From the NCBI GenBank assembly GCA_949295325.1, contig CASFKG010000001.1:1-64000 (forward strand): a DNA stretch of 64,000 nt, read 5' to 3'. Of the stretch, positions 18,893-26,716 are shown one piece after another; position 1 is the first letter of the stretch; every line of letters starts with the position of its first letter. This DNA is from an uncultured bacterium (GTDB lineage: Bacteria; Bacillota_I; Bacilli_A; RFN20; CAG-826). Made by a program: the position numbers and the translations under genes. The notes beneath the pieces were generated by a model. It was given only the letters and a program-made list of their open reading frames with translations. It was not told the DNA's origin and did not search any database.

Positions 18893-19756
18893 CTAGGATA
18901 TCTCCGGCTCCTTGCCTTCCCGGAACGAGTTTATCAGCCGCTTGGCTTCGCCGATCAGCGGATCGAGCCGGTATTCCTTCCTTTCGCGGTGGAAGTAGGC
19001 GGAGTCTTCCCACGGCTTGGCCGTGGCCATGTGCATGTAGGGCCACACGCGGAAGGCCGCGCAGTAGTGGCGGACCAAGGTGTCGTCCCTCAGTTTCCTT
19101 ATCTCGTTATAGCGCTGCGGCATGAAGGCCGTCTTCCCCTTGAATACCCTGTTGAGGGCGCCTTGGTCGACGGTCAAATCCCGCTTGTGGGAGGCGACGT
19201 AGCGGGCTTCTTCGAAATAGCCGCCTTCCCTTATCGCGGGGAGGTCCATGAGCACCACCCCGGCGTTGAAGTAGTCCCGATGCCCGCGGGACACCATGAC
19301 GGGATCCTTGACGGCGGCAAGGGGCTTCCCCCGCATGTCGAAGCCGTATATCTCCGAAACGTCCCCGAGCACGAGCGTATCGACGTCGAGATGGAGGAGC
19401 CGGTCCGGCAATGTGCCGACGAGGTCGTAGAAAAGGCGCAGGAAGGTAAAGGGGGAAAAGCGGCCCCGGCTCCCCTTGCACCTCGCGATGCGAGAAGCAA
19501 AGCGGCTCATGTCGTTATAGACGACGCGGCTATCGGGGCTAAGAAGCCCCGCCGCCTTCCCGATATAGGAAACCATTTCCGGGGTCAGCCCCCCGAAGCG
19601 CGGCGATATCGCGGTGAAGTCGCCGCTTGAAAGATACAGGTCGACGGGGACGGGCGTGTTCTTCAATAAGGAAACGACGGCCATGAGCAAGCCGTCGAAA
19701 AGCATCGCGCTGCTAGAATAGGCAACACTGATGCGCTTCCCCTCTTCCATTGCCAC
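18893..19756 (-). CDS. Glycosyltransferase family 8 protein
   Basis: A 287-residue GT-A fold enzyme of the GT8 (LgtC-like) type, which moves sugars from UDP-sugars. It begins RISVAYSSSAMLFDGLLMAVVSLLKN, carries the metal-binding DxD in LLHLDVDTLVLGDVSEIY (about 125-130) and the typical DYFNAGVVLMDL block, then NRVFKG. A C-terminal HYCAAFRVWPYMHMAT, with the final His, resembles the second metal-contact region. It may add a sugar to a surface glycan or glycolipid. A second, divergent GT8-like domain occurs in the fusion gene at 23977. Confidence 0.85.
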   Translation of the reverse strand: MAMEEGKRISVAYSSSAMLFDGLLMAVVSLLKNTPVPVDLYLSSGDFTAISPRFGGLTPEMVSYIGKAAGLLSPDSRVVYNDMSRFASRIARCKGSRGRFSPFTFLRLFYDLVGTLPDRLLHLDVDTLVLGDVSEIYGFDMRGKPLAAVKDPVMVSRGHRDYFNAGVVLMDLPAIREGGYFEEARYVASHKRDLTVDQGALNRVFKGKTAFMPQRYNEIRKLRDDTLVRHYCAAFRVWPYMHMATAKPWEDSAYFHRERKEYRLDPLIGEAKRLINSFREGKEPEIS

Positions 19757-23720: not shown

Positions 23721-23731
23721 TTCCTTTGCGG

Positions 23732-23819
23732 CGGAGGCGCAGAGATTCGAACTCTGGCCGGGCGTGAACCCGCTATCGGTTTTCAAGACCGAACCCTTAA
23801 GCCGCTTGGGTACGCCTCC
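23732..23819 (-). tRNA. tRNA-Ser (TGA anticodon)
   Basis: A class II tRNA with acceptor stem GGAGGCG/CGCCTCC and a long variable arm (AGCGGGTTCACGCCC). The anticodon stem TCGGT/ACCGA encloses loop CTTGAAA, giving anticodon UGA. CCA is not encoded. It starts one base after the tRNA-Ile gene. Confidence 0.93.
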
Positions 23820-23820
23820 G

Positions 23821-23897
23821 TGGTGGTCCATCGGTGGTTTGAACACCGGACCTAGCGCTTATAAGGCGCTCGCTCTAACCGGCTGAGCTAATGGACC
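23821..23897 (-). tRNA. tRNA-Ile (TAT anticodon)
   Basis: Acceptor stem GGTCCAT/ATGGACC with an encoded CCA. The anticodon stem AGCGC/GCGCT encloses loop CTTATAA, so the anticodon is UAU, reading AUA. Most bacteria read AUA with a CAU tRNA modified to lysidine by TilS. Direct UAU tRNAs are known from a few lineages such as Mycoplasma mobile. Fold and CCA look fully intact. Confidence 0.92.
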
Positions 23898-23976: not shown

Positions 23977-25728
23977 ATGGATCGTTATACCGTCTACTAC
24001 TCCGCGGCGAACAACCGGAACGACGAAATACTATTGAGCGCCCTATCTATAGCGATCAATTCGGGCAAGCCCGTGGATTTCTTCGTCTTGACCATGTCGG
24101 CCATCGACATGTCGTTGGGCTACCGCCCCTTTTCGTCGAAAAAGGCCAAGAAGATCGAAAGGATATTGAAGGAAACCAAACCCGACACGACTTTTTCGGT
24201 CATCGATCTCCAGAAGGAGTACGTTTCCGCCTTCGGGACCCCGAGGCGCGAATGGACCGGGCGCTCGCCCTATCCGCTGCTAAGGCTCCTCCTCTTGGAC
24301 AACAAGGATATAAAGGATCCATATCTCATACTCGATAGCGACGTCGTCGCCCTCGGGGACATCGGCCGGCTTTTCGACATCGATACCGCAGGCCTCCCCT
24401 TCGCCGCGGCCAAGAAGGGCCGCAAGTTCGATACCGGGGCCGTCATGGTCGTCCCGGCGCTGCTGAAGGACAAAGACAAACCGGAAATAAGGCCGGAGTC
24501 CGCCCCCTATAGCGAGGTCCTCCTGTACGGATCGCTGTTCGGCGGCCGCTCCTACGTCTACGAGGAAGGGCTCATAACCCGGGGCGTCCCGGCCGAAAAG
24601 ACCATCCTCAAGCACTTTTCCCGAAACGGTTCTCCGCGCAAGGGACTCCTCTCCCCCCTGCATTCCACCGATACCGCGGCCGTTTTGCGTAAGCTCGACG
24701 ACGAAAGGATAAGGCGGGTCTACCTCCCCTACGCCGAAATCGTCAGCAATGAAGGCGAACGGTCGGCGAAGGCGAGGCAGAAAGCCGCCCGCGACTACAT
24801 AATCGACATTTCCCACCTTTACAAGACCTACGGCCGCCTGAAGGCCGTCGACGACGTTTCCTTCCGGGTCAAAAGGGGAAGCCTTTTCGCCTTCCTCGGC
24901 CTGAACGGAGCCGGCAAAAGCACCACCATCAACATCATTTCCTCCATCTTGGACAAGGACTACGGGAAGATAATCATTGACGGCAAGGACCTCGACCACG
25001 AGAAGAACGCGATAAAGCGCGAAATCGGCATCGTCTTCCAGACCTCGACGCTCGACGACGAACTAACGGCCTACGAAAACCTCTCTACCCGGGCGGAGTT
25101 CTACGGCATTTCCGGGAAGGAAAAGAAGGAAAGGATAGCGAAAATAGTCATGATGCTGGGGCTCGAACCCCTGCTCAACCGGCCCGTCAAGAACCTCTCC
25201 GGCGGGCAAAGGCGGCGGCTCGACATCGCCAGAAGCATGATCCACGAGCCGACCCTCCTCATCCTCGACGAGCCCACGACGGGGCTTGATCCCAAGACCC
25301 GCCAGGACGTCTGGCGGCTCATCGATTCGATTAGGGAGAAAACCGGCATGACCGTCTTCCTCACGACCCATTACCTCGAGGAGGCCGAGCAGGCCACCGA
25401 CGTCGTGATAATGGACCACGGCCGCATCATCGCGCAGGGTTCCCCCGTCGAGCTGAAGAACCGTTACGCAAGCGACTACGTGATGGTCTATTCCCCGCGC
25501 AGGAAGGAACTCGACGCCCTTTTGAAGGGGAAGTCATCCTACGTCCCCGACGCGGGGGGCTACCGCTTCTTCGTAAAGGACCCGGAAGAGGCCCTGAGGT
25601 TCGTAAACAGCCACGGCGATTTGATCAAGGATTTCGAGATCAAGAAGGGGACGATGGACGACGTCTTCCTCGACGTTACCGGCATAAACATCAAGGAAAG
25701 TAAGGAGAACGGCGATGAAAACGTATAG
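23977..25728 (+). CDS. GT8-like domain fused to an ABC-type ATPase
   Basis: A 583-residue protein. Residues 1-~260 resemble a GT8 glycosyltransferase: TVYYSAANNRNDEILLSALSIAIN at the start, PYLILDSDVVALGDIGRLF with a DxD near 120, and FDTGAVMVVP near 153. From about 267 it is a complete DrrA/CcmA-type ABC ATPase: Walker A GLNGAGKST (~306-314), Q-loop VFQTSTLDDELT, signature LSGGQRRRLDIARS (~406), Walker B LLILDEPTTGLDP (~427) and switch His in TTHYLEEA (~462). No stop or ribosome site separates the halves. The permease gene overlaps its end by 14 bp. The GT half may sense or load a sugar-bearing substrate; this is inference. Confidence 0.85.
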   Translation: MDRYTVYYSAANNRNDEILLSALSIAINSGKPVDFFVLTMSAIDMSLGYRPFSSKKAKKIERILKETKPDTTFSVIDLQKEYVSAFGTPRREWTGRSPYPLLRLLLLDNKDIKDPYLILDSDVVALGDIGRLFDIDTAGLPFAAAKKGRKFDTGAVMVVPALLKDKDKPEIRPESAPYSEVLLYGSLFGGRSYVYEEGLITRGVPAEKTILKHFSRNGSPRKGLLSPLHSTDTAAVLRKLDDERIRRVYLPYAEIVSNEGERSAKARQKAARDYIIDISHLYKTYGRLKAVDDVSFRVKRGSLFAFLGLNGAGKSTTINIISSILDKDYGKIIIDGKDLDHEKNAIKREIGIVFQTSTLDDELTAYENLSTRAEFYGISGKEKKERIAKIVMMLGLEPLLNRPVKNLSGGQRRRLDIARSMIHEPTLLILDEPTTGLDPKTRQDVWRLIDSIREKTGMTVFLTTHYLEEAEQATDVVIMDHGRIIAQGSPVELKNRYASDYVMVYSPRRKELDALLKGKSSYVPDAGGYRFFVKDPEEALRFVNSHGDLIKDFEIKKGTMDDVFLDVTGINIKESKENGDENV

Positions 25729-26716
25729 TTTCAAATTGCTCTGGGCCCTCACGAGCCGCCACCTGAAAATGTTCTTCAAAAACAAGATCACATTCTTCTT
25801 TTCGCTGCTGGTGCCGTTCATCACTTTGGCCATCTACCTCCTCTTCCTGCGCGAACTGGAGGTAAGCGCGGTCACTTCCCTCATCGAGGGCTACGGCCTT
25901 AGCGATCCAGAGCCCCTCATAAACGCGGCCTACAACCTCATCGACTCCTGGATGCTTTCGGGCATATTGGCCGTCAGCTGCATCTCGGTATCGCTCAATG
26001 CCTGCCACATAATCATTTCCGACCGCGAAAAGGGCGTTAACCGGGAATTCATCGCCTCTCCGGTAAGTCAGGGACTGGTGACCCTTAGCTACTTCATATT
26101 CAACATCCTCGTGAGCCTCATAATCGTGACCGCGGTCCTCTTCATCTGCCTCATCTACCTCGGGGTGGTCGGCAATTTCCGCCTCACCTTCGCCAATTTC
26201 GGCTACATCTACCTGGTGCTGATCCTCTCCGTCCTTTCGGCGGCGACCGTCACCATCTTCCTTTGCTCTTTCATCAACAACTTCTCGATATTCAATTCCG
26301 TCATCGCCATCGTCTCGGCCGCCGTCGGCTTCCTCATCGGCGGCTACATGCCGATATCGATGCTGCCCGGCGTGGCGCAGAACCTCACGGCCTTCTTCCC
26401 CGGGACCTATTCGGCGGGTCTGCTCCGCAACTACTTCATGAACGACCAGATCGTCGCCCTCTACGACTTCATGATGGGCAATGCCGAATACGCGCCCATC
26501 GCCGAGGAACTGCTTTCCTCGATATCCGGTTCCTTTTCCTTGGACCTGACCGTGTTCGGCTCTTCCCTTTCGGTGGCCTGGATGTACGGAATATTGGCCA
26601 TTTCCATACTCCTATTCGGGGCCCTGAACGCCCTTCTTAGCAACCGGAACCTCCATCTCGGGGCGATAGGGAAAAGGAGAAAGGCCCGCAGAAAGGCCCT
26701 CGAAAAACAGGAATAG
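25715..26716 (+). CDS. ABC-2 type transporter permease
   Basis: A 333-residue membrane protein with six or more helices. It begins with a cytoplasmic LWALTSRHLKMFFKNKITFFFSLLVPFITLAIYLLF, typical of DrrB/NodJ-like exporters, and has a DREKGVNREFIASPVS loop of the ABC-2 type. The C-terminal tail is strongly basic (KRRKARRKALEKQE). It overlaps the fusion-ATPase gene by 14 bp and is clearly its partner. Together they form an exporter, possibly for a glycolipid, drug or glycosylated molecule. A bidirectional terminator follows at once. Confidence 0.88.
   Translation: MKTYSFKLLWALTSRHLKMFFKNKITFFFSLLVPFITLAIYLLFLRELEVSAVTSLIEGYGLSDPEPLINAAYNLIDSWMLSGILAVSCISVSLNACHIIISDREKGVNREFIASPVSQGLVTLSYFIFNILVSLIIVTAVLFICLIYLGVVGNFRLTFANFGYIYLVLILSVLSAATVTIFLCSFINNFSIFNSVIAIVSAAVGFLIGGYMPISMLPGVAQNLTAFFPGTYSAGLLRNYFMNDQIVALYDFMMGNAEYAPIAEELLSSISGSFSLDLTVFGSSLSVAWMYGILAISILLFGALNALLSNRNLHLGAIGKRRKARRKALEKQE

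Follow-up and report, generated by a model that had tools for sequence, protein, structure and literature searches.

A single gene of the window (the whole stretch of 64,000 nucleotides that was analyzed) encodes a GT8-like glycosyltransferase (GT) domain and a DrrA-type ABC ATPase in one open frame of 583 amino acids (23977–25728, plus strand). The fusion is real and old, and full-length homologues were found in 16 other genomes. The results suggest that one and the same machine both makes and exports a sugar-decorated molecule, which is probably a glycolipid.

The fused gene and its exporter partner

The frame runs from the GT half into the ATPase half without an internal stop codon, as a sequence-only reading of this stretch had described it. 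The GT8-type (GT-A) domain, which is present in a derived form, comprises residues 1–250 (23977–24726). It is followed by a linker (24727–24795) that contains no ATG, GTG or TTG and lies within a predicted long helix (residues 243–273 of the structure model). The remainder, residues 274–583 plus the stop codon (24796–25728), is the DrrA-type ATPase including its probable DrrA C-terminal region. The GT domain contains Arg103 (24283–24285), the DXD motif D120-S-D122 (24334–24342), D152-T-G154 (24430–24438) in place of the NSG or NAG of canonical fused GT8 domains in the alignment, and His213 (24613–24615), the equivalent of the metal/donor histidine of LgtC. In the ATPase half, the Walker A motif GLNGAGKST (residues 308–316, 24898–24924), the ABC signature LSGGQ (25195–25209) and the Walker B motif LILDEP (25258–25275) are all present. 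The motifs noticed earlier were thus recovered: a DSD near residue 120, a DTGAVMVV block, now located at residues 152–159, and a complete ATPase, for which the Walker A motif had been placed at about residue 306.

The ATPase half matched the Pfam family ABC_tran with about 124–125 bits (residues 292–435). The DrrA1-3_C family (PF13732, cut-off 27.4 bits) matched residues 488–567 with 27.9 bits when the half was searched alone and with 26.5 bits when the whole protein was used. The best NCBIfam match was TIGR01188 (drrA), with 279.9 bits and hence below the cut-off of 312.45 bits. At the C-terminus of the fused protein, Pfam yielded the DrrA1-3_C match and nothing carbohydrate-binding, so that it is not of the Wzt type. 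The closest solved relatives of the ATPase by sequence include ABCA lipid exporters.

The next gene on the plus strand encodes a permease of 333 amino acids (25715–26716), which starts with an ATG at 25715 and shares 14 bp with the fused gene, in agreement with the overlap read previously. It matched ABC2_membrane (PF01061, 53.9 bits) and PF12698 (50.4 bits), and an ABC-2 permease therefore adjoins the ATPase, as expected for an ABC-2 exporter. Directly 5′ of the fused gene, genes for tRNA-Ser and tRNA-Ile are located on the minus strand (23730–23897), and similar sequence seems to be present upstream in a same-genus relative, G029.

Distribution of the fusion

When 279 genomes of the order were searched with a profile, 17 fused genes were retrieved from 17 species and six genera, all belonging to one family, which includes Candidatus Fiminaster. 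The fused copies include those of Candidatus Fiminaster equi (L064) and of an uncultured Bacilli bacterium (L063). Within the window's genus the fusion is sparse (3 of 37 genomes), and the two same-genus homologues match over the full length with identities of 60% (G029) and 48% (G018). An ABC-2 permease follows directly 3′ of the fused gene in 17 of 17 genomes. The sequence-only reading had proposed to look for the same fusion in related genomes and had named two separate genes, joined here by the loss of a stop codon, as the outcome that would contradict it; instead, the related genomes carry the fused form. An assembly or frame artefact was rejected because independent genomes keep the fusion down to 48% identity. 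Outside the family, no fusion was found at an E value of 1e-130 in 395 genomes of the class and 392 genomes of the phylum, which were sampled, overlapping sets.

Production of two proteins by an internal start was considered as well. In 5 of the 17 fused genes, the 45 codons preceding the ATPase contain no ATG, GTG or TTG, which makes a single polypeptide hard to avoid and an internal start unlikely. In the window's gene, the closest possible start in this frame is a TTG, which lies 35 codons ahead of the ATPase.

One genome (G157, L232) contains a solo GT8 of the fused type, and a match to the ATPase part was not found in that genome, indicating that this GT8 is not strictly dependent on the pump.

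The GT half is canonical in most relatives and altered in the window's genus

The two halves were searched separately, as had been proposed, and the outcome was mixed for the GT half. The ABC half matched its families, but residues 1–260 of the window's protein gave Glyco_transf_8 (PF01501) as the sole Pfam match, with 16.3 bits for the half alone (E 0.0074) and 14.2 bits within the whole protein, below the curated cut-off of 24.3 bits. Taken alone, this half would fail the HMM check named in the sequence-only reading, whereas two full-length homologues passed the cut-off with 78.0 and 60.7 bits. Across the family, 14 fused copies scored 60–93 bits and have all motifs in canonical form, whereas the three copies of the window's genus scored 14–36 bits. 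A profile built from 19 GT8 domains matched GlyE, LgtC and WbbM among solved sequences; a phmmer search of PDB sequences with the window's GT half returned nothing relevant, and matches were obtained with the family profile alone.

The structure model of the window's half has a mean pLDDT of 63, with residues 1–130 modeled well and residues 153–225 poorly. The best Foldseek matches of this model were LgtC, WbbM, GlyE, LARGE1 and glycogenin, all of the GT8 type, with a probability of 1.00 and a TM score of about 0.36, which is low because the well-modeled part covers only about 150 residues. The fold match is supportive, but it is not independent of the sequence comparison, because the alignment used for the model contained canonical GT8 rows. 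Together with the scores of the homologues, it agrees with the original assignment of the N-terminal half to the GT8 type.

Arg103, both aspartates of the DXD motif and His213 are invariant in all 19 GT8 domains aligned. In LgtC, Asp103, Asp105 and His244 are located near the donor, and a Mn ion coordinates the donor phosphates (PMC4202792). From the order of the motifs, we infer that D120, D122 and H213 correspond to these three residues. By comparison, the NxG, DQ, NEQR and KQW motifs have been lost in all three fusion-bearing members of the window's genus, and G029 has DPA where the other sequences have DTG or NSG. The remark that a QxW-type motif and the final histidine were not obvious in the window's GT half was therefore correct for the K/QxW part, which is missing, but not for the histidine, which is present as H213.

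The window's genome also contains separate GT8 genes (18893–19756 and C1:364296) with 65–67 bits for PF01501, and separate GT8 genes occur in every fusion-bearing genome of the genus. The gene at 18893–19756 (minus strand, 287 amino acids, 67.3 bits) is canonical and need not belong to the exporter system. The fused GT half is indeed more divergent than this separate gene, as had been noted (16 versus 67 bits).

The GT half of the window's genus has also evolved fast. Between the window and G029, dN is 0.70 in the GT half and 0.17 in the ATPase, i.e. about four times higher. The dN/dS ratio of the GT half is 0.33 for this pair and 0.83 for the window and G018, for which dS is near saturation. 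Between closer canonical pairs the ratio is about 0.02–0.2, which indicates purifying selection and was counted in favor of the model proposed below. The branches of the three GT halves of the window's genus are very long (1.76, 0.65 and 2.78, compared with a median of 0.29). Judged from these alignments, the GT half in the window's genus looks partly worn down or repurposed.

The exporter clade and its glycosyltransferase partners

A quick tree of 86 related ATPases was calculated, for which the root was not inferred. One branch with an SH-aLRT support of 99 separates 43 of the 86 ATPases, the exporter clade of the window, from the other 43. A GT is fused or adjacent in 33 of the 43 cases within the clade, compared with 3 of 43 outside of it, all of the latter being GT32 (Fisher p 2e-11, a value that ignores the relatedness of the sequences). 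The neighboring genes were probed for GT8, GT2, GT32, Glf and Mbeg1, and thus rows scored as "none" may hide other GT families. The partners within the clade are a fused GT8 in 17 cases, a separate upstream GT8 in 2, a polytopic GT2 upstream in 10 and downstream in 3, and a fused GT2 in 1. No GT adjoins the exporter in 10 of the 43 rows, and in 8 of these 10 an Mbeg1-like hydrolase is found instead. These hydrolase genes (PF11187) adjoin the exporters L193, L198–L201, L206, L207 and L209 of another family of the order, and a lysyl-tRNA synthetase-like gene is often nearby.

In the single GT2 fusion (G180, L192:4194-6464), a polytopic GT2 is joined in frame to the same ATPase in a protein of 757 amino acids, which parallels the GT8 fusion. 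In G506 (L233), a member of another family, the gene order is GT2, ABC, permease and UDP-galactopyranose mutase, which suggests a galactofuranose-containing product. The exporters linked with GT32 lie outside this clade, on the opposite side of the ATPase tree (G406, G436 and G249). GT32-type (Gly_transf_sug) genes are located directly upstream of related exporters at L235, L236 and L218, and the gene at L218 is split into two frames.

Separate genes for GT8, ABC and permease exist in RUG11704. Joining the GT8 domains of RUG11704 and G068 with the fused GT8 domains was rejected (AU p 0.0025); derivation of the fusion from the split pair of RUG11704 was thus rejected for the GT8 part, and GT8 has been tied to the exporter at least twice. 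One common origin of the fused GT8 domains was not rejected (AU p 0.51), which does not demonstrate it.

GT8 proteins of about 600 amino acids were considered as candidates for further ABC fusions, but two of them (L240:451-2316 and L247:1438-3306, about 620 amino acids) turned out to be fusions of GT8 with a PlsC-type acyltransferase (PF01553). Many further GT8 frames of about 600–680 amino acids are present in the family and may also be of this type.

The cell and the probable cargo

The genome that contains the window (G000) belongs to the Bacilli and has a size of 1.1 Mb. It gave no match to PF00953 (MraY/WecA/TagO), PF00905 (transpeptidase) or PF00884 (LtaS-type), profiles that match in most control genomes; the genome is 95% complete, and the absence of a family is thus no proof. 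The result points to a cell that has neither a wall nor the usual initiators of undecaprenyl-linked glycans. This makes peptidoglycan, or an undecaprenyl glycan begun by the PF00953 family, an unlikely cargo and favors a glycolipid. Further indirect hints of a glycolipid are the GT8-PlsC-type fusions of the family, the sequence kinship of the ATPase to ABCA lipid exporters and the precedent of mycobacterial DrrABC, the cargo of which is a complex lipid (PMC11539658). The earlier proposal of a glycan or glycolipid exporter is therefore backed as the leading reading, with the clade tied to GT8 and GT2 and the sister set partly to GT32.

Discussion

We propose that the ATPase of a DrrAB-type ABC-2 exporter and a GT8-type domain at its cytosolic N-terminus are carried by one polypeptide. 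Two such chains would assemble with two copies of the permease, and thus two GT domains would sit at the cytosolic entrance of each exporter. The GT8 domain of most relatives would take a sugar from a nucleotide-sugar donor and attach it to an acceptor that is a lipid or lipid-linked. The exporter would then carry this glycosylated product across the membrane, and in this way the fusion would couple the glycosylation step to export. We infer the dimer arrangement, catalysis in the relatives, the glycolipid substrate and the coupling of synthesis to export. The GT domain of the window's genus appears to have kept only the donor and metal side (DXD, His, Arg) and to have lost the acceptor-side and catalytic motifs, and therefore its acceptor may have changed or it may mainly bind a nucleotide sugar. 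The model as a whole, i.e. one chain that is both exporter ATPase and GT8 carrier, coupled glycosylation and export, and an altered GT domain in the window, is held with little more than even confidence. Points against it are the missing motifs and low Pfam score of the window's GT half, the ten rows of the clade in which no GT adjoins the exporter, and the solo GT8 of G157.

Several alternatives concern the altered GT half. In the window's genus it may have ceased to be a transferase and may instead bind a nucleotide sugar or a glycan, and thereby recognize the cargo or gate the exporter, like the C-terminal carbohydrate-binding domain of some Wzt proteins. The retention of the donor-side residues in spite of the loss of NxG, DQ and KQW in all three copies would fit such a role, as would the faster evolution compared with the ATPase, the separate GT8 genes in each of these genomes and the precedent of export ATPases with cargo-binding modules (PMC11231755). 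However, the DPA of G029 shows that the donor site itself varies, and the region of residues 153–225 has low pLDDT values; as a general account we regard this reading as possible, but on balance unlikely. For the window's copy itself, catalysis on an altered acceptor would be only slightly more likely than a binding or gating role. The more specific proposal of an exporter family with the GT as a covalent part of the motor, in which the GT of the window's genus has become a nucleotide-sugar-sensing gate, is rather doubtful. The GT half could also be a decaying passenger that has stayed open only because the ATPase follows it in frame. The very long branches and the ratio of 0.83 with G018 would agree with decay, but the conservation of D120, D122, H213, R103 and the RSPYP-LR block at 26% identity is not expected under it, and the ratio of 0.33 with G029 still suggests constraint. 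Decay alone accounts poorly for the retained donor-site residues, and we consider it improbable.

A further alternative would change the cargo rather than the GT: a peptide, natural product or drug might be glycosylated by the GT before export. Drug export is the best-known role of DrrA-type ATPases and has given TIGR01188 its name. Nevertheless, no obvious biosynthetic cluster was seen beside the fused gene when the loci were read by eye and with a few probes, and the links to polytopic GT2 and UDP-galactopyranose mutase point to envelope material, so that little probability is given to such a cargo.

The system that we favor, a GT8-carrying exporter, is filed as a variant of the DrrAB-type ABC-2 exporters. 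Like the DrrAB and DrrABC exporters of mycobacterial PDIM and of daunorubicin, it has a DrrA-type ATPase, probably with a DrrA C-terminal region, and an ABC-2 permease encoded by its own gene; in contrast to them, it has an additional N-terminal GT8 domain, misses the TIGR01188 cut-off, has one permease gene and is restricted to one lineage. In Wzm/Wzt exporters, e.g. of Klebsiella O-antigens and mycobacterial galactan, GT genes adjoin the exporter genes and the finished glycan is exported, and some Wzt proteins have an extra glycan-binding domain (PMC11231755, PMC10951656). The window's system shares the proximity of ABC-2 exporter and GT genes and, by architecture, resembles a GT-coupled exporter. 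However, its ATPase is of the DrrA type, the extra domain is an N-terminal GT8 rather than a Wzt-type carbohydrate-binding module, and its genome has no PF00953 match. With LgtC, GlyE and the GT8-like domain of WbbM, the window's half shares the sequence profile, a tentative fold match, the DXD motif and the final histidine, but it has no NxG, DQ or KxW and is fused to an ATPase. Searches of the open-access literature for GT-ABC fusions, GT8 with ABC and GT-Wzt coupling yielded no description of this architecture.

The coupling of glycan or glycolipid synthesis to export by ABC transporters has mostly been studied via loose protein-protein contacts. The GT-ATPase fusion of 17 species, which the independent GT2-ATPase fusion parallels, offers a single-chain system for direct tests of this coupling. 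The fusion also directs attention to the putative surface glycolipids of small-genome gut Bacilli that apparently lack a wall.
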